Shown: in pieces, positions 1,247-32,976 of the stretch
Numbering within the stretch: position 1 is the first letter of the stretch
Layout of the letters: every line of letters begins with the position of its first letter
NCBI GenBank assembly: GCA_027729805.1
Contig: JAQCEO010000015.1
Coordinates: 1-35,321, forward strand
Length of the DNA stretch: 35,321 nucleotides
Direction: 5' to 3'
Source of the DNA: Actinomycetota bacterium
Lineage (GTDB): Bacteria > Actinomycetota > Actinomycetes > S36-B12
Position numbers and translations under genes: made by a program
The notes under the pieces: generated by a model
Told to the model about the DNA's origin: nothing
The model's input: only the letters and a program-made list of their open reading frames with translations
The model's database searches: none

Positions 1247-1630
1247 CTAGATATCTAGGTCGTCAGCGACCGCACGCAGCACCGCGGCGATTTTCTGCGC
1301 TGCGGCGTCCGGCGGGAATTTACCGCGTTGGAGTTGATTCGATACCCCGTCGAGTAACTTAATCAGATCCTCGACAATCCCGGCCAGATCGCCGGCATCC
1401 TTACGTGAACCCTTGACCACCGATTGTGGTGGCCCAATGATCGAGACGGTCAAGGCTTGCTTACCGCGCTTACCGTCGACAATGCCGAAGTCAACCTTGG
1501 TGCCCGGCTTAAGTGCGGGCACCCCGGCGGGCAGGGTTGACACATGGACAAAGACATCCTCGCCATCATCGGAATTGATGAATCCGAAGCCCTTCTCCGC
1601 GTCGTACCACTTGACTATTCCCGTTGGCAT
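1247..1630 (-). CDS. Cold-shock domain protein with C-terminal extension
   Basis: The 127-aa protein begins with a full cold-shock domain (about residues 1-67), a single-stranded nucleic-acid-binding OB fold acting as an RNA chaperone in the cytoplasm. The RNP1-like block KGFGFI (residues 13-18) and the RNP2-like block DVFVHVS are both present, preceded by GIVKWYDAE. The remaining 60 residues form a mostly helical tail (DLAGIVEDLIKLLDGVSNQL), an extension also found in actinobacterial relatives such as the mycobacterial CspB type; its role is not known to me. The start codon overlaps that of the divergent helicase-associated gene, so upstream control sequences must lie inside that gene. The stop is TAG, showing that TAG terminates genuine genes here. 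Confidence 0.92.
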   Translation of the reverse strand: MPTGIVKWYDAEKGFGFINSDDGEDVFVHVSTLPAGVPALKPGTKVDFGIVDGKRGKQALTVSIIGPPQSVVKGSRKDAGDLAGIVEDLIKLLDGVSNQLQRGKFPPDAAAQKIAAVLRAVADDLDI

Positions 1631-3662
1631 GGGTGAAGGCTACCCACCCACCCTTAGGGTGGTGCGGGTGAGTCCACGTAGCTTGGCCGATTCCCTAAGG
1701 CAGCGCGATGATCTAGCCCTCGCCGCCCTGTTGCACCGGCGCCCCGATCTGCTGCACCCAATCCCCTCGGATATCACCGCCCTAGCCGCCCGATCGACCA
1801 CCGGGCCCAGTGTTTCGCGCTGTTTGGATACTTTGGACGCCCTGACCCTCTTCGTCTTGGCGGTGGTCGCAAGGCAGTCGGCCGAACTCCCCGCCCTTCC
1901 CAAGGAAGTCCTCCGCGCCGTTATCGAGGAATTGGACGAATCGGCCCGCGACCTCGCCGAGGCCGCCCTGCAGAACCTGGTTGAACTCGCCCTAGTTTGG
2001 GGCACCGAGGATGAAATCCGAGCCATTCACGCGGTGCGCGAACACCTCGCGGGGGCGACCGCGCCAACTTGGCCACCACCAAGGCTGCCGATCACCACCG
2101 GTAAGACGAAAAACGCGATCAGTGACCAGCAGGCCGGGGTGCACGCCCGAGAAGCGATTGCGCAAGTGCGGGACCTCCTTGATACCTGGGCCGAGAACCC
2201 GCCGAGTGTGCTGCGGGCGGGTGGTCTTGCCGTTCGGGATTTTGCCGCAACCGCACGTGACTTAAATTCCGACGCGCCAACGGCCGCGCTCTGGATCGAT
2301 ATCGCACACGCGGCAGGTTTACTCGACGACGATGGGGAAGAGCGCCCATCTTGGGTACCAACCGATCGGTTTGACATCTGGCTGGGCAAATCCGCGGCCG
2401 AGCAATGGGTAACTCTTGCCCTAGCTTGGCTTACCTCACCGCGCCTTTCGAGTCTTGCCACTGACAAATCAACGCTGCTAGCCACCGACTCCGAGCGTAG
2501 AGCGGTTGTCACCTTGCGTGCCCAGGTACTCCAACTGCTGGCAACCGCTACTGACCCAGTCGAACCCACCGCGCTAATCGAGGTGCTTAATTACTCGCAA
2601 CCTCGGCGCAGTGGCGAACTTCGATCCCAGGTGGTGCACGCGACTTATCGCGAAGCCACGCTGCTTGGTGTTATGGGCGCCGATTCGTTGACTACCCCCG
2701 GGCGCGCACTTCTTGGCCCCGACCCCGGGGCTAGCGCAACCGACGGGGCCGCGGCAATCACCGCATTGATGCCTCTGGAAATTGATCATGTACTCATTCA
2801 GGCCGATCTAACAATGATCGCCCCCGGCCCGGTGGCCCCAGAGCTCGCGCGCAAATTGCGGCTACTCGCTGATGTTGAATCCCGTGGTCATGCCACCGTC
2901 TATCGAATTTCAGAGCACTCCCTTCGGCGCGCATTCGATGCTGGTTGGGATGCGGCCAGAGTGCACGCGGTGTTAGGTGACGCATCTACCACCGGGCTGC
3001 CCCAACCACTTAGCTATCTAATTAATGACCTTGCCCGTCGCCACGGTGCCATCAGAGTTGGTGCCGCGTCCGCTTATCTGCGCTGCGATAACCAGGGCAC
3101 AATTTCAGCGATCCTCGGTGATAGACGGCTGCGAGCACTGCAGCTTTCACAGACCGCGCCAAACATCTTGGTTAGCCAAGCCACCCCGCATGAGTTCATG
3201 GCAGCACTGCGCGAAGCCGGCTATGCGCCGGCCGCCGAAACCCCCGATGGCTCGGTGGTGGTGTTGCGCCCGGATGAACGCCGCGTGCGCTCACGGGTGG
3301 CGCGCAAAGTCAGTTCAGGACGGCGCGATAGCGATGCTCTGATCGCCAGCGTGGTAAAAGGTTTGCGTTCCGGTGACCGCGCAGCGCGAGCACCACGCGG
3401 CGAAGTGGTGGTCGGGCCAGCCGGCACGAACGAGGTGCCTCGCACCAGTAGTGCGGCAACCCTCGAGGCCCTACGGCTTGCGATCGCCGAGACCACACCG
3501 GTTTGGATTGGCTACGCCGACGCCGATGGCACCAACACCGAGCAGATAATTGATCCAATCCGCATGGGTGGTGGCTCGGTCACCGCATTTGACCACCGCA
3601 CCGAGCAGGTTCGAACTTTTTCGGTCTCGCGAATCAGCGGGGTAGCTCCCCTAAATCCCTAA
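1629..3662 (+). CDS. Helicase-associated domain protein (Rv0862c-like)
   Basis: A protein of about 677 aa related to the actinobacterial helicase-associated family (XPB/Ssl2-like N-terminal domain, Helicase_C_3) that usually sits beside XPB helicase genes. The N-terminus has the family pattern ALAALLHRRPDLLHPIPSDI. The central part carries the helicase-like block MPLEIDHVLIQADLTMIAPG, followed by LARKLRLLADVESRGHATVY. The end (ATLEALRLAIAETTPVWIGY to FSVSRISGV) looks like a WYL-type beta domain. No Walker A or DEAD box is present, so it is not itself an ATPase. Its role is presumably in DNA repair with XPB, by inference. The start is uncertain: ATG 1629 overlaps the csp start codon, and GTG 1659, 1662 or 1668 would fit family N-termini equally well. 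The frame stays open upstream to 1413, but that part is antisense to csp. Confidence 0.85.
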   Translation: MGEGYPPTLRVVRVSPRSLADSLRQRDDLALAALLHRRPDLLHPIPSDITALAARSTTGPSVSRCLDTLDALTLFVLAVVARQSAELPALPKEVLRAVIEELDESARDLAEAALQNLVELALVWGTEDEIRAIHAVREHLAGATAPTWPPPRLPITTGKTKNAISDQQAGVHAREAIAQVRDLLDTWAENPPSVLRAGGLAVRDFAATARDLNSDAPTAALWIDIAHAAGLLDDDGEERPSWVPTDRFDIWLGKSAAEQWVTLALAWLTSPRLSSLATDKSTLLATDSERRAVVTLRAQVLQLLATATDPVEPTALIEVLNYSQPRRSGELRSQVVHATYREATLLGVMGADSLTTPGRALLGPDPGASATDGAAAITALMPLEIDHVLIQADLTMIAPGPVAPELARKLRLLADVESRGHATVYRISEHSLRRAFDAGWDAARVHAVLGDASTTGLPQPLSYLINDLARRHGAIRVGAASAYLRCDNQGTISAILGDRRLRALQLSQTAPNILVSQATPHEFMAALREAGYAPAAETPDGSVVVLRPDERRVRSRVARKVSSGRRDSDALIASVVKGLRSGDRAARAPRGEVVVGPAGTNEVPRTSSAATLEALRLAIAETTPVWIGYADADGTNTEQIIDPIRMGGGSVTAFDHRTEQVRTFSVSRISGVAPLNP

Positions 3663-3701: not shown

Positions 3702-4820
3702 TTAATTGATGGGAATCTCCCTAGTCCAGATCCGAAAATCTGCGAGTAACTCTGGGATCGGCTGCACCCCGATACCCGGGCCGGTCGGCACCGGCAGCCG
3801 CCCATCTTTGAGCACGAAGGGCTCGGTGATATCGACCGCGTAGTACCGGTTTGAGGCACTGGTGTCCCCGGGCAAGGTGAAGTTCGGCAGGGCAGCCAAC
3901 GCTAGGTTCGCGGCCCGACCAATGCCGGTCTCGAGCATGCCACCGCACCAAACTGGCGAATTGCGCTGCATGCACATGTCATGGATGTCGCGCGCGGTTA
4001 GGTAACTGCCCACGCGGCCCGGCTTGATGTTGATGATGGTCGCCGATCCAAATTCCAGAGCCGACTCAGCCGAGGCCACCGACAAAATTGATTCGTCCAT
4101 GCAGATCGGTGTTGTGCACACCTCGGTGAGCATCCGATGCCCAAGCCAATCTTCTTCCGGCAGTGGCTGCTCAATGAGCAGCAGGTCGAACTCATCTAGT
4201 TTTGCCAACTGAGCCGCATCAGCACGGGCATAGGCCTGGTTCGCATCCACCTGCAATGGCATTTCGGGCCACCGGTCCCGCACGGCAGCGACCGGCTCCA
4301 CATCCCATCCGGGTTCGATTTTCAACTTGATCCGACGATAGCCGGCATCGACATAAATACCGACTTCGTCCAGCAACTCACTCAAGGTCTCGGTTGTTGG
4401 AATTCCAACACTCACTCCGCAATCAACTTCAGTTCGGGTAGACCCCATGAAACTCGCTAAAGATTGTCCCCGCTCACGTAACCAAACATCGAGCATCGAC
4501 GTCGCAATCGCCGTCTTGGCCATCGGATGGCCGCGGATATAGTCAAGTGCCGCCCGCACTTCTTCGGGATTGGCCGTCAATGTTGTTTCCCGCAATGCCG
4601 GGATCAGGTGATCGGTCATTACGTCAATTACCCCAGCTGTGTATTCAGAGCTATAGCCGGGCCAAGAAGATGCTGCGCACTCGGCCCAACCACTGGTACC
4701 ACTTACTGAGACCGCCTCGACGATCAACACCTCTCGCGCAATCTCAGTGCCAAAACTCGTACGGAAGGGCCGTACCAACGGCATGTTTATTAGGTGAAAT
4801 CGAAACATCTCAATACTCAC
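3702..4820 (-). CDS. N-succinylamino-acid racemase / o-succinylbenzoate synthase family
   Basis: An enolase-superfamily enzyme (372 aa, the normal size) of the MenC2/NSAR group. Metal and catalytic residues are all in place: the KxK pair K165 and K167 in RRIKLKIEPG, metal ligands D192 (VDANQAY), E217 (LLIEQPLPEED) and D242 (CMDES), and the opposite base K266 (IINIKPGRVG). Family members make o-succinylbenzoate for menaquinone, racemise N-succinyl or N-acyl amino acids, or do both. Its neighbours are a GNAT acyltransferase and an M20 deacylase rather than men genes, which favours the racemase role. The GTG start overlaps the TGA stop of the upstream acyltransferase gene (GTGA), so the two are probably translationally coupled. 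Substrate cannot be read from the sequence. Confidence 0.85.
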   Translation of the reverse strand: MSIEMFRFHLINMPLVRPFRTSFGTEIAREVLIVEAVSVSGTSGWAECAASSWPGYSSEYTAGVIDVMTDHLIPALRETTLTANPEEVRAALDYIRGHPMAKTAIATSMLDVWLRERGQSLASFMGSTRTEVDCGVSVGIPTTETLSELLDEVGIYVDAGYRRIKLKIEPGWDVEPVAAVRDRWPEMPLQVDANQAYARADAAQLAKLDEFDLLLIEQPLPEEDWLGHRMLTEVCTTPICMDESILSVASAESALEFGSATIINIKPGRVGSYLTARDIHDMCMQRNSPVWCGGMLETGIGRAANLALAALPNFTLPGDTSASNRYYAVDITEPFVLKDGRLPVPTGPGIGVQPIPELLADFRIWTREIPIN

Positions 4821-5620
4821 GCGCGCTCCCTGTAAAGAACGTATTTACCGGTTCGTTCGACTCCAATAACGCAATACCCGTCAGTTAATGCGGCAGTGAG
4901 CGTCTCGCGTAACGACAACCGCCACCGCATGGCCGCCGCTGGATCAACGCCGCGCAATTCGACAATGTCCTCCGGGATCTCGACCACACGAATATCTCGG
5001 CCGGCCTGGGTGAGCATCGCGGCGTCCAGCGGCAGCAGTCGACCCGCGATCGCATCAGATACTTTGGCCGACGATAGGTGCCACCAGGCAAATACCCGGT
5101 CGGTGGGATCACCCGCATTTATGGCATCTGGCATCTGCCCGTAGAAATCTATTTCATACCCTTTGACATCGACACCAAGTTTGCAGATATTCAAGATGGC
5201 GTTGCGCCGCACGAGCGGATCAAATGTCCAAGAAATTGTGTCAATGCCTTGCTCGATAGCCCACATTCGTTGATGCAGTTTCAATGCGGTACCAATGTGC
5301 CGGTTTCGAAAGTCGGCCAGCACCGCCGCCATATGCGAGTGCAAGTGCACCTGCCACCCAGCGTCAAGGTGTCGACCGACAACCGCCAGTGCCGCTCCGA
5401 CTGGCTCACCACCTGAATATGCGACGGCGCAGTACCCACCCGCATGGATTAACGCGGTCAGCAGATTTTGCTGAACCTGTGTGCCCTCACCTGGCCAGAC
5501 CGTATCGAAAATTCGCCGCGCGGCTGCCAAGTCTGTAGGGTCTACCACTGAGCGGACTTCTACTCCGGCGCGGTCCTGTGCGCGCTGGAAATCGGCCGCC
5601 GAACTATCCGCCAAGGTCAC
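4817..5620 (-). CDS. GNAT-family N-acyltransferase (COG3375-like)
   Basis: A 267-aa GNAT-fold protein. The acetyl-CoA-binding motif A region reads VLADFRNRHIGTALKLHQR, followed by the subgroup signature WTFDPLVRRNAILNICKLGV. This subgroup is typically encoded next to NSAR/MenC-like enzymes. In the characterised Geobacillus case the partner is a succinyl-CoA:D-amino-acid N-succinyltransferase; I infer the same type of reaction here. It overlaps the racemase gene by 4 bases. GTG 5620 is chosen as the start: longer versions up to 5737 would overlap the divergent M20 gene and add nothing domain-like. GTG 5629 is an alternative. Only 43 bp separate it from the M20 start, leaving a compact divergent control region. 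Confidence 0.8.
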   Translation of the reverse strand: MTLADSSAADFQRAQDRAGVEVRSVVDPTDLAAARRIFDTVWPGEGTQVQQNLLTALIHAGGYCAVAYSGGEPVGAALAVVGRHLDAGWQVHLHSHMAAVLADFRNRHIGTALKLHQRMWAIEQGIDTISWTFDPLVRRNAILNICKLGVDVKGYEIDFYGQMPDAINAGDPTDRVFAWWHLSSAKVSDAIAGRLLPLDAAMLTQAGRDIRVVEIPEDIVELRGVDPAAAMRWRLSLRETLTAALTDGYCVIGVERTGKYVLYRERA

Positions 5621-5663
5621 ACATAACACCGTACCGAACCGACACAGCACGAAAAGGAGTAGC

Positions 5664-6800
5664 GTGCCCAAGACCCTGGAATCAGCAACCGCTCTGCTCC
5701 CCCGCATGATCGAAGCCGTACAACTCCTAGTCCGCATCGAATCACCAACCCACGACCTCGCTGCCTGCGCGAATATTGCCGAAATCGCCGCAGACCTGAC
5801 AGGTGAGTGGCTCGGGAGCCCGGCCCGTGTCGAAGTCCATGATGGCTGCCCGGTTTTACGCTGGGGCCCAGAACACCCGCAAGTCCTGCTGCTAGGTCAC
5901 CTTGACACCGTGTGGCCGGTTGGCACCTTGGACCGCCTCCCCACGAAATTTGCCGATGACCAGCTCACCGGCCCGGGTGTCTTCGATATGAAGGCCGGCG
6001 TCGTGCAGGCCTTGGCCGCCGTCGCTTTACTCATTGCTGAGGGTACGGACGTCTCCGCAGTTGGACTGCTCCTAACTACCGATGAGGAGACAGGATCGCG
6101 TGCCTCGCGCGGAGTAATCTCAGCGGCCATCACCGAAGCCAAAGCGGTGCTGGTGTTCGAGCCGTCAGCGGGTGGCGCCCTTAAGACCGAGCGCAAGGGC
6201 ACTTCTTGGTACCAGATTAAGTTCCACGGGCGGGCCGCCCATGCCGGCCTTGATCCCGAACGCGGAGTTAATGCAACCGTTGAAGCCGCCGCATTCGTCA
6301 TCGCAACCCAAACCTGGGGTGATCAAGGTGCCGGTACCACGGTCACACCAACCTTGCTGCACTCAGGGACTACGGCAAACACCGTCCCTGTGCTGGCCGA
6401 GTCAACTTTGGATGTCCGCGCCTGGACAGCGGCCGAGCAGCAACGTATCGATGAAAATGTTCGCGCCTGGCGAGTAAGCCACCCCGAGGCACGCATCGAG
6501 ATCGACGGCGGCATTGACCGACCACCACTTGAAGCAGCAGCATCGCTGGGTCTATTCGCCATCGCGCAAAACGTCGCGCAAGAACTTGGCTTGCCAGAAT
6601 TAAAATCGTGTGCGGTCGGCGGCGCCAGCGATGGCAACCTAACCGCCGCGGCCGGGGTTGCCACCCTGGACGGCCTCGGCGCGGTCGGCGATGGCGCCCA
6701 CGCGGATCATGAATGGGCTTTGGCCTCCGCCATGGCCGAGCGCGCCGCCCTTACCGCCGGCATCATCAAAGCCACACTTTATGGAGAGGTAAATGACTGA
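5664..6800 (+). CDS. M20 family metallohydrolase (carboxypeptidase G2-like)
   Basis: A 378-aa zinc-dependent amidohydrolase of the M20 family. Visible metal and catalytic residues are H79 and D81 in GHLDTVWP, the bridging D108 in GPGVFDMKAG, the general base E141 and ligand E142 in TTDEETGS, E166 in VFEPS, and the C-terminal histidine in GDGAHADHEW. The dimerisation domain has the usual KFHGRAAHAGLDPERGVNA block. GTG 5664 follows a strong AAAAGGAG ribosome-binding site, so the longer open frame to 5481 is discounted. Given the divergent racemase and GNAT genes, a likely job is removing the acyl (possibly succinyl) group from N-acyl-L-amino acids. Its 3' end overlaps the XPB helicase start by 8 bases, indicating an operon. 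Confidence 0.85.
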   Translation: MPKTLESATALLPRMIEAVQLLVRIESPTHDLAACANIAEIAADLTGEWLGSPARVEVHDGCPVLRWGPEHPQVLLLGHLDTVWPVGTLDRLPTKFADDQLTGPGVFDMKAGVVQALAAVALLIAEGTDVSAVGLLLTTDEETGSRASRGVISAAITEAKAVLVFEPSAGGALKTERKGTSWYQIKFHGRAAHAGLDPERGVNATVEAAAFVIATQTWGDQGAGTTVTPTLLHSGTTANTVPVLAESTLDVRAWTAAEQQRIDENVRAWRVSHPEARIEIDGGIDRPPLEAAASLGLFAIAQNVAQELGLPELKSCAVGGASDGNLTAAAGVATLDGLGAVGDGAHADHEWALASAMAERAALTAGIIKATLYGEVND

Positions 6801-8451
6801 AGGCCCCTTGATCGTGCAAAGCGACAAAACCCTCTTGCTCGAGGTTGACAATCCACAAGGCAAGGAGTGCCGGCGCGCTATCGCACCATTTGCCGAGCTC
6901 GAACGTGCCCCCGAGCACATTCATACCTATCGCCTTACCCCCCTTGGACTATGGAATGCGCGCGCCGCCGGTCACGATGCCGAGCAGGTCGTTGACACCC
7001 TTATTCGCTACTCGAAGTACCCGGTGCCGCACGCCCTCCTTGTCGACGTCGCCGAGACGATGTCACGTTATGGGCGCATGCAGGTCAATAACCATCCGGT
7101 GCACGGGCTGGTGCTACAAGCCCTTGACGAAGCGGTGCTCGAAGAGGTCCTGCGGAGTAAGAAAGTGGCACCGCTGCTGGGCGCGCGCGTTGACCAGACC
7201 ACTGTCATCGTGCACCCCAGTGAACGCGGCCACCTAAAGCAGGCACTTATCAAACTCGGCTGGCCAGCTGAGGACGTCGCGGGCTACGTCGATGGCGAGC
7301 GCCATGCAATTGGCCTAATCACCGATGACTGGCAGCCCCGGCCCTACCAACAAGAGGCAGCCGAAGGTTTCTGGCATGGTGGCTCTGGCGTCGTGGTGCT
7401 GCCGTGCGGTGCCGGCAAGACCATCGTCGGCGCGCTGGCCATGACCCTTGCCCAGGCCACCACGTTGATTCTCGTCACGAACACCGTCGCGGCCCGGCAG
7501 TGGCGAAGTGAATTACTAAAGCGCACCACCCTCACCGCCGATGAGATCGGCGAATACTCCGGCGCGAAGAAAGAAATCCGTCCGGTGACAATCGCCACTT
7601 ATCAAGTCATGACTACCAAACGCCAAGGCATCTACCCCCACCTTGACGTGTTCGACTCGCGGGACTGGGGCTTGATCATCTATGACGAGGTGCATCTCCT
7701 ACCCGCACCCATCTTTCGGTTTACCGCTGATATCCAGTCCCGCCGCCGCCTCGGGTTGACCGCAACCCTTGTTCGCGAGGATGGGCGCGAGAGTGACGTA
7801 TTTAGTCTCATCGGCCCGAAGCGCTACGACGCCCCTTGGAAAGATATTGAAAACCAAGGTTACATCGCACCCGCCGACTGCATCGAGGTGCGAATCACCT
7901 TGCCAGACAGTGACCGCATGACCTATGCGATGGCCGAGAAAGAAGATAAGTACCGGCTCGCTGCGTCCGCGCCGGAAAAGAACCGGCTCGTCGAAGAAAT
8001 CATCGCCCATCACCAAGATGACCGCATCCTGGTAATCGGTCAGTACCTTGACCAACTTGCCGAACTCGGTGAACACCTTGATGCACCGATTATCACCGGC
8101 GCAACACCGGTCAAGGAGCGCGAGCGCCTATTTGCTGCGTTCCGTGTTGGCGAGATCAAACTGCTGGTGGTCAGTAAAGTCGCCAACTTCTCGATCGACC
8201 TACCCGAGGCGGCGGTTGCCATTCAGGTAAGTGGAACTTTCGGCTCCCGGCAGGAGGAAGCCCAGCGCCTCGGCCGCATCCTGCGCCCGAAAGCAGATGG
8301 TCGCACCGCCCATTTCTACTCAATTGTCACGCGCGACACCGTGGATGCAGATTTCGCTCAACATCGCCAGCGCTTCTTAGCTGAGCAGGGCTACACTTAC
8401 CGGATTATCGATGCCGATGACATTCACTCCGGGAAATGGGAAGCAGTTTGA
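6793..8451 (+). CDS. XPB/ERCC3-type DNA repair helicase
   Basis: A 552-aa superfamily 2 DNA helicase closely matching the bacterial XPB group (mycobacterial Rv0861c/ErcC3). Motifs in order: N-terminal domain to about residue 170; motif Q region QPRPYQQEA; Walker A GAGKT (206-210) in LPCGAGKTIVGAL; Walker B/DEAH-type DEVH (298-301); motif III LTATL; the XPB-specific RED motif (328-330) in TLVREDG; motif IV region ILVIGQYLDQ; motif VI QRLGRILRPK (491-500). These enzymes are 3'-5' ATP-dependent helicases implicated in nucleotide excision repair. The gene overlaps both neighbours (M20 upstream, ClC downstream). Its usual partner gene lies 3 kb upstream, across the racemase module. Confidence 0.95.
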   Translation: MTEGPLIVQSDKTLLLEVDNPQGKECRRAIAPFAELERAPEHIHTYRLTPLGLWNARAAGHDAEQVVDTLIRYSKYPVPHALLVDVAETMSRYGRMQVNNHPVHGLVLQALDEAVLEEVLRSKKVAPLLGARVDQTTVIVHPSERGHLKQALIKLGWPAEDVAGYVDGERHAIGLITDDWQPRPYQQEAAEGFWHGGSGVVVLPCGAGKTIVGALAMTLAQATTLILVTNTVAARQWRSELLKRTTLTADEIGEYSGAKKEIRPVTIATYQVMTTKRQGIYPHLDVFDSRDWGLIIYDEVHLLPAPIFRFTADIQSRRRLGLTATLVREDGRESDVFSLIGPKRYDAPWKDIENQGYIAPADCIEVRITLPDSDRMTYAMAEKEDKYRLAASAPEKNRLVEEIIAHHQDDRILVIGQYLDQLAELGEHLDAPIITGATPVKERERLFAAFRVGEIKLLVVSKVANFSIDLPEAAVAIQVSGTFGSRQEEAQRLGRILRPKADGRTAHFYSIVTRDTVDADFAQHRQRFLAEQGYTYRIIDADDIHSGKWEAV

Positions 8452-30752: not shown

Positions 30753-31291
30753 CTACCACCACTTATCCGGGTAGGAGCGGTAGCCGAGCACCCGGTTGGT
30801 CACTATCGCCAGGCCAATTACCAAAACGGTGTAAATCATCAAGATGCCATAGGCCTTAGGGACATCTGCCAAGACATAGCCGGCCATGATCGCGGCAAAG
30901 GGCACGGCAAATGCGGGGCGTGAAAGACCCCGAAAAGGTAGAAGAAGAACAAGGCTGTGGCTCCGGCCATGACCCCAAGTATCGTCGCGGGCCAAGGCAA
31001 AATCGACAAACAAATACCCAGGAAGCCAGTCAGCGCATAAGCCCCGAGTACTCGAAGTGGGCGACTGCTCGGCAGCTGTGGTTGCGCGACGATCAATACA
31101 AAACTCACCAGCGGTGGCACCAACAAGGTGGCCACAATGCTCAGGTCACCTTCCAGTAGCCAGCTGACGCTAAGGATCACGGCCAAACCCACAGCCTGCA
31201 CCGCGACCAAGGCGAGGAGGTTGCGCATCGGCATCCGCTTTGCGCTGTCGATCAGTGGTTTTGACGGGCCCTGCTGTGATTCTTCAGTCAT
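30753..31291 (-). pseudogene. HPP-family membrane protein, frameshifted
   Basis: Two overlapping frames make one protein of 179 codons if one base is added near the G4 run at 30915-30918 (reverse strand C4). Frame one, from ATG 31291, gives four or five membrane helices and reaches FFYLFGVFHAP; frame two resumes as AFAVPFAAIMAGYVLADVPK and ends YRSYPDKWW. The block RPLRVLGAYALTGFLGI, the HAPA stretch (cf. HPPAGA) and the YP-x-W ending match the HPP family of small membrane proteins, some implicated in nitrite transport. The start overlaps the stop of the CocE-like gene (ATGA), showing that the pair was an operon. A sequencing error in the homopolymer is possible. Confidence 0.7.
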
Positions 31292-32976
31292 CTAGCGCCG
31301 GCCACCGGAACCCGAAGCTCGGCCAAGTGCGTACCGCCCAGATGCACGCGCGTCGATCCGGTCGATCCGGTCACATACCGGGCGGGCAGTTGCCCGGTAA
31401 ACGGGTTCAATGCGAACAACCACTGTGATCGCAGTTCCAACTCCAAGACATCACCGGCGCGCAACCTGGTGGCCTGCGGCAGCAGTGCGACGCTGATCGG
31501 CACGATCTCACCGGGGCTAAATGGTTCGGCTTTGGCGTGGGTGTGCACCGGTTGCCAAGGGGTGGAAAGCTCGGCGTCGACTTCACGATGCGCGAGCCGG
31601 TGCCAGCCGTGCGTCACTACATCGCGCCCGAAACCATAAGACCCTTCGAAGGGGACTTCGACTCCCCCGCGAATCAGCCGCACCGCCGCTAACAAGGTCG
31701 CGTCGCTCGCGCCCTCAAGGCTGATATCAGCATTAAATGTCATTGGCCCGATGAGGTCGAGTGCCCTTGGCACCTGCCACCTAAACTTCAGCGCCCCATC
31801 CGCATTAGCAAATACCACTGACGAATCGGTGGTCTCCGGGGTTTCGGTTAGTTGCCCGCCGGCGTGCAGATGGAGTGACATCCAGGTGACATCCGGTGGC
31901 GGCCAGTCGGCCGCCATGCGGATCTCCGCCGGTGCGTCGCCAGTTTCGTGGATTGCGATCCGCACCGGTGGCACTTGATCCCAACCGTTATCGGCGCCCG
32001 CCAAGAAGTGTTCGAAGAAGCGCAATTGCGTGGCCTTGGCTTCATCTCCGTAGAACACGCACCATTTACCGCCGCGGTGCGTCCATAGCCATTTCTGTTT
32101 TGACGAAACTCGGGCGTAGGCTTCAAAGGAGCCGCGGGTATGTAGTAGGTGGTCTGAGAAGCTGCCGCAAACCAGCATCGGCACGTTGATGCGCGAAAGT
32201 TCTGGCATCCGCGAGCGCCACCAGTCGTCAAGCTCGGGTCGGCTCACCGCCTGCGCGTACAAATCCTAAGTGGTGCGTCCGGATTTATTGGTGATCTTCC
32301 CCCACATCGCGAAGAAACCGTGCTCGCGCACCCCACCGGGCTTCGCGAAATCGCGATAGACATCCGAAAAGCCCTCCCATGGGCAAATCGCCGCCAAATG
32401 CGGTGGCTGCTCGGCGGCCGCCCGATACTGCGAGAGGGCCAGATACGAAACCCCCAGCAGGCCAACTTTGCCGGTTGACCACGGCTGGGTACCGGCCCAT
32501 TCGATTAGATCGTGATAATCCTCGCCCTCTTGCTTAGAGAGCATGGTGCCGGTACCTTCCGAGGCACCGAACCCGCGCAGATCGCAGACCACTACCGCGT
32601 AGCCCAGTGGCACCCAGTGCGCGGGGTCTGGCCCCTCCCACCCCGTCCAAGCCGAGAAAGTTATTGGCTCTGGTTGGTGAAACACCCGATACTGCGGTGA
32701 CGGCAGGTAACCCCACGGCACTTTTTTCGGCAGCGCATCCTTGTTATACGGATGCGCGCACATTATTACCGGCACCGGCCCGCCACCGCGGATCAAATCC
32801 CCCGGGCTACCCGGTGCGGGTCGAAAGACATTGGCTCTAAGTACCGTGCCATCGCGCGCGGTGATCGGCACATTCCATTCGGCGATGACGCCGGCAGGTG
32901 GCGCGGTGATTGTTATCGGTGGGCGCGCCATGCCGTGCAGGCGCCGGGACACGGTGCGCGGGCTAGCCAGCTTCAT
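31288..32976 (-). pseudogene. CocE/NonD-family alpha/beta hydrolase with internal TAG
   Basis: A 562-codon gene of the X-Pro dipeptidyl-peptidase/cocaine-esterase family, interrupted by one in-frame TAG at codon 237 (32268-32266). Piece one (32976-32269) starts after a GGAGGGG site, with ATARDGT-like VPITARDGTVLRANVFRP, VCDLRGFGASEG and the nucleophile elbow GVSYLALSQY. Immediately after the TAG the same frame continues DLYAQAVSRPELDDWW, then supplies the acid (CGSFSDHLLHTRG) and the histidine (WTHRGGKW), and ends in the beta-jelly-roll lid domain (LELELRSQWLFALNP). No base is missing, so only the stop codon breaks it. It could be a recent nonsense mutation, an error, or UAG readthrough. Confidence 0.75.

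Follow-up and report, generated by a model that had tools for sequence, protein, structure and literature searches.

A three-gene module probably involved in amino acid enantiomer conversion is conserved in the actinobacterial order Nanopelagicales

Main finding

Three adjacent genes in the window, by which we mean the whole 35,321-nucleotide stretch of DNA analyzed here from an uncultured actinobacterium, are likely to encode an amino acid enantiomer-conversion module that works by N-acylation, racemization, and deacylation, probably with a net conversion from D to L. The initial annotation of this DNA had proposed an N-acyl-amino-acid module of this kind, and the identity of the racemase, the subgroup of the GNAT acyltransferase, and the family of the putative deacylase lend support to that proposal. 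We established the family identities of the three proteins, the presence of intact functional residues, the coupling of the genes, their conservation in related genomes, and the absence of a MenC role for the racemase gene. What we propose by analogy with the pathway of Geobacillus is the identity of the acyl donor, the stereospecificity of the acyltransferase and of the hydrolase (and hence the direction), and the physiological role.

In the proposed pathway, the GNAT would transfer an acyl group, by analogy succinyl from succinyl-CoA, to the amino group of free amino acids, probably the D-forms. The racemase would interconvert the N-acyl-D and N-acyl-L forms through a 1,1-proton transfer between two catalytic lysines, with a metal-bound enolate. 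The M20 enzyme would then hydrolyze the N-acyl-L form, so that the net flow would probably run from D to L and consume one acyl-CoA.

Organization of the locus

The features of the locus are as follows.

1413 to 3662, plus strand: Helicase_C_3/WYL-domain protein, the syntenic neighbor on the other side of the module from XPB; presumably not involved in the pathway
3702 to 4820, minus strand: N-succinylamino acid racemase (most likely; NSAR/OSBS family, MLE subgroup of the enolase superfamily), 372 amino acids (P0001), GTG start
4817 to 5620, minus strand: GNAT N-acyltransferase of the NSAR-associated subgroup, 267 amino acids, with the motif W-T-[FY]-D-P-L-x3-N-A
5621 to 5663, no strand: intergenic region of 43 bp separating the GNAT and M20 genes, which are divergent
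5664 to 6800, plus strand: M20 metallohydrolase (P0003), carboxypeptidase G2-like, 378 amino acids, PF01546/PF07687
6793 to 8451, plus strand: DNA repair helicase XPB, a syntenic neighbor; presumably not involved in the pathway

The GNAT and racemase genes overlap by 4 nucleotides (GTGA) at the start of the racemase, and the 3' end of the M20 gene overlaps the start of the XPB gene by 8 nucleotides. This layout agrees with the initial annotation, which had described an NSAR/MenC-type enzyme with all its catalytic residues, a GNAT of the matching subgroup coupled to it, and a divergent M20 gene 43 bp away. The genes immediately adjoining the module in the window include no transporter, peptidase, or D-amino acid gene, a point against our preferred explanation. 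Both flanking genes carry Helicase_C_3, a domain found at the N terminus of XPB, and the module looks as if it sits between a functional pair of helicase-domain genes. The true start of the Helicase_C_3/WYL gene is probably downstream of position 1413. Elsewhere in the window (31288 to 32976, minus strand), an S15/PepX_C (CocE-type) hydrolase gene is broken by one in-frame stop codon, which reflects either a decayed gene or a sequence error.

The racemase

Based on family identity and intact residues, P0001 is most likely an N-succinylamino acid racemase of the NSAR/OSBS family. It matches TIGR01928 with 310 bits (cutoff, 200 bits), and its top phmmer matches in the PDB are to the NAAAR/NSAR structures from Amycolatopsis. 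The alignment shows that the catalytic lysines Lys167 and Lys266, the metal ligands Asp192, Glu217, and Asp242, and Lys165 of the KxK motif are all present. The second-shell residue Arg269 is the equivalent of Arg266 in the Amycolatopsis numbering, a residue that we take to have a role in favoring racemase activity. This position is an arginine in all 65 module racemases that were aligned, and the arginine is absent from the true MenC of the same genome. Among the 71 GNAT-adjacent racemases from other genomes, the catalytic residues and the arginine are kept in every aligned sequence. Enzymes of the NSAR/OSBS family are catalytically promiscuous (PMC4215206), and this counts against our preferred explanation.

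The genome itself contains five MR_MLE_C matches. A second NSAR-like match, on contig C7 (L055:6753-7613, minus strand), turned out to be no working copy, as it consists of the C-terminal ~145 amino acids of an NSAR between ftsK-like and rimO-like open reading frames (ORFs). It looks like the remnant of a second copy, which is still complete in some relatives. In one genome from another family of the order, the position between the WYL helicase and XPB genes is occupied by a diverged enzyme of the MLE family with 35% identity (L075:6935-8041, minus strand). This enzyme is without the Arg266 equivalent, and its locus is without a GNAT or an M20 gene.

The acyltransferase and the M20 hydrolase

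The GNAT has a C-terminal extension of ~80 amino acids. In an AlphaFold2 model (pLDDT, 95.8), residues ~16 to 188 match ordinary GNAT folds (best Z score, 16.1; 152 aligned residues; 2.2 to 2.3 Å), and the matches are general GNAT folds only, namely N-terminal acetyltransferases and others. The model thus confirms a predicted acyltransferase fold over this region, and the fold matches do not indicate a substrate. The protein fits no NCBIfam family, and a PDB sequence search for its relatives gave no GNAT match.

P0003 is a probable N-acyl-L-amino-acid deacylase, as judged from its family and residues. The residues expected of an M20 enzyme, comprising the metal ligands, the catalytic Glu, and the class-marking Glu, are present (His79, Asp108, Glu141, Glu142, Glu166, and His346). 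A Glu rather than an Asp at the Glu166 position points to the specificity of aminoacylases and carboxypeptidases rather than that of dipeptidases (PMC6271292). Carboxypeptidase G2 (CPG2) is the closest solved M20 enzyme and aligns with P0003 over the whole length; His193, Asn239, and Arg286 align with CPG2 His229, Asn275, and Arg324, in the residue numbering of PMC6271292. Orthology of P0003 with the M20 enzymes of the Bacillota modules was considered and rejected, as blastp gave no meaningful match.

Conservation in the order Nanopelagicales

A contig (G046:C14) from a genome in the family of the window is identical at 7,001 of 7,001 bases to JABAYF010000022.1 of Candidatus Nanopelagicales bacterium HE327_NSB002. 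Because both genomes group in the same family, this match places the window in the order Nanopelagicales. A match to P0001 was found in 98 of the 166 genomes of the order, and 39 loci were read out for their gene neighborhood. The GNAT gene lies directly upstream of the NSAR gene and in the same direction at 36 of these 39 loci, a divergent M20 gene lies beside the GNAT gene at 27, and XPB follows beyond the module at 31. The gap between the GNAT and M20 genes is 25 to 74 bp in most of the loci, and the other side of the module is commonly flanked by a Helicase_C_3/WYL gene and a cold-shock gene. The full trio occurs in nine genera, one of which (g34) is from a different family.

The initial annotation had regarded the divergent layout and the link with a repair helicase as unusual, which these counts do not bear out, and it had suggested a survey of the triad in related genomes, where both the pair and the trio proved to be conserved. 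The layout and the helicase link are a conserved trait of the order; they are old and retained, since the block is common to many of its genera, and for the same reason we rejected the idea that the helicase link is peculiar to this genome. With the counts for GNAT (36/39) and M20 (27/39) in the order and for the wider loci described below (71/89), the association of the genes exceeds chance.

In three genera (g2, g18, and g39) the GNAT-NSAR pair stands at the locus without an M20 gene. Of ten genomes lacking an adjacent M20, seven carry no M20 of this type at any other place either. The third step is therefore not always encoded by this M20, which is a further point against our preferred explanation. 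It is conceivable, and in our view improbable, that in Nanopelagicales the GNAT-NSAR core is essential and the M20 optional; N-acyl-amino acids would then be the end product where the M20 is missing, for excretion, detoxification, or signaling, and the adjacency of XPB would reflect shared regulation.

Distribution beyond the order and known systems

Bacterial and archaeal genomes were scanned with a degenerate DNA pattern based on the GNAT motif, which gave at least 120 loci, a sample of unknown bias and not a census. Among the matches listed, 89 loci had an NSAR or at least 1.5 kb of sequence to each side of the GNAT. NSAR is adjacent to the GNAT in 71 of these 89, always on the same strand, and the spacing is no more than 60 bp in 62 of the 71. 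Among these matches, an adjoining NSAR accompanies the GNAT subgroup in about nine phyla, and the loci belong to Actinomycetota, Bacillota, Chloroflexota, Acidobacteriota, Gemmatimonadota, Alphaproteobacteria, Hydrogenedentes, Bipolaricaulota, and a Thermoplasmata archaeon. The usual order in the listed Actinomycetota is M20-GNAT-NSAR, all codirectional, with a CPG2-like M20. A different M20 subfamily lies beside the pair in the Bacillota Oceanobacillus, Heyndrickxia, Psychrobacillus, Sporosarcina, and Chryseomicrobium, and one Arthrobacter also has this Bacillota-type M20. Because M20 enzymes of two subfamilies turn up repeatedly next to this pair, there is good reason to count deacylation among the steps of the pathway.

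In several plasmids the module is near amino acid or peptide ABC transporters or MurR/RpiR regulators, and beta-lactamase-family serine hydrolases are found near it in Streptomyces, Arthrobacter, and D. psychrotolerans. Such neighbors suit amino acid or peptide catabolism but do not prove it. Among the matches listed there are also 18 loci (L084, L112, L172, and 15 others) where an NSAR-type GNAT with at least 1.5 kb of sequence to each side has no NSAR nearby; the Herbidospora locus (L172) has only M20 and GNAT. The GNATs at these loci may act without a local racemase.

A close functional precedent is the route of Geobacillus kaustophilus, reportedly described by Sakai et al. in 2006, in which an NSAR, a succinyl-CoA:D-amino-acid N-succinyltransferase, and an L-desuccinylase act together. 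The window resembles it in having the racemase, GNAT, and M20 families, and the GNAT-NSAR coupling is as in the Bacillota loci; it differs in its divergent M20 gene and helicase neighbors. The claim of the initial annotation that the same three families are involved thus stands for the M20 at the family level and does not extend to the subfamily, as P0003 is CPG2-like and gives no meaningful blastp match to the Bacillota module M20s. Judged from these, the G. kaustophilus M20 very probably belongs to another subfamily than P0003.

Relatives of the module are found in other Actinomycetota. The link to the CHARACTERISED enzymes runs through the characterized 1SJA racemase (Amycolatopsis sp. T-1-60), which is 96% identical to the racemase of a plasmid operon in Streptomyces sp. 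NBC_00257 and 90% identical to that of an M20-GNAT-NSAR operon in Amycolatopsis azurea. The window proteins are 55 to 57% (NSAR), 40% (GNAT), and 48 to 49% (CPG2-like M20) identical to those of this group. The Streptomyces plasmid and A. azurea operons have the same three genes adjacent, all codirectional with M20 first, whereas in Nanopelagicales the M20 gene lies in divergent orientation and is linked to the XPB gene. In Amycolatopsis azurea (G166) there are two NSAR genes, both with a GNAT in the vicinity (L213 and L214), and besides the trio a dedicated menC of its own, with a score of 451 bits.

On plasmid MP1 of Deinococcus radiodurans, an NSAR and a GNAT that are 43% and 33% identical to the window proteins lie near each other, and no M20 gene was found in the stretch read. 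Unlike in the window, ABC transporter substrate-binding ORFs lie between the two genes; these two overlapping ORFs (L077:7183-8060) are probably one broken transporter gene.

Alternative explanations

The automated family name of the racemase (TIGR01928) is o-succinylbenzoate synthase (OSBS), and it could be argued that the gene serves menaquinone synthesis and that its neighbors are coincidental. OSBS activity is possible in members of this family, and the Amycolatopsis enzyme was once assigned a physiological OSBS role (PMC4215206). This explanation is strongly disfavored, to the point of being hardly credible. On contig C23 of the same genome there is a menC that matches NF002782, the actinobacterial MenC model, with 323 bits (cutoff, 288 bits), next to menB (TIGR01929, 393 bits; cutoff, 343 bits) and menD (TIGR00173, 365 bits; cutoff, 244 bits). 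A MenC of this type was found in all 40 relatives searched, 31 of which score above the cutoff, and the linkage of the racemase to a GNAT is seen across phyla. Because a dedicated menC adjoins menB and menD elsewhere, P0001 is not the MenC of the cell, and we rejected that role. A separate menC, which the initial annotation had proposed to look for and whose absence, together with OSBS activity only, it had named as a refutation of its proposal, is thus present.

The same enzymes could also work in the opposite or in a neutral direction: the GNAT would acylate L-forms, the module would make or detoxify N-acyl or D-amino acids, and the M20 might be D-specific or a general salvage deacylase. The racemase step is reversible, so only the stereochemical preferences of the other two enzymes, which the sequence does not reveal, set the direction, and several genera keep the pair without the M20. 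In Geobacillus, however, the succinyltransferase is reportedly D-specific and the hydrolase L-specific, and we therefore regard an opposite or neutral direction as rather unlikely. The NSAR/L-succinylase pair of G. kaustophilus has been used to produce L-amino acids (PMC7431475), which again argues for the D-to-L direction. It is more doubtful still that the substrate is a related N-acyl amine or a dipeptide and that the M20 is a carboxypeptidase instead of an N-acyl-amino-acid deacylase. CPG2 as the closest solved M20 and the position of the GNAT outside all NCBIfam families would fit such a substrate. The racemase, however, is far nearer to the NSAR structures (431 bits) than to dipeptide epimerases (only ~93 bits), and the residue class of the M20 suits aminoacylases as well as carboxypeptidases (PMC6271292).

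Implications

The gene trio, which we prefer to explain as an enantiomer-conversion module, is real but of a known kind and largely ordinary, because it is kept across much of the order and resembles the Streptomyces and Amycolatopsis operons. What changes in the earlier picture is the subfamily of the M20 enzyme and the gene neighborhood, which is conserved and not unusual. The survey also corrects automatic annotation, as these "menC" genes are most likely racemases in genomes with a separate MenC. The correction covers relatives of the historical Amycolatopsis enzyme, and the gene set of A. azurea bears on the old debate on whether the physiological role of the Amycolatopsis "N-acylamino acid racemase" is that of an OSBS (PMC4215206).

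The module may be used for the assimilation of environmental or wall-derived D-amino acids, and the recycling of peptidoglycan D-amino acids that the initial annotation had tentatively put forward would be one such use; with the search terms tried, we found no paper on D-amino acid use by Nanopelagicales. If the proposed function is true, a costly, acyl-CoA-driven route for D-amino acids has been retained widely in an order of actinobacteria with small genomes, and D-amino acids would be a predictable nutrient for that order.
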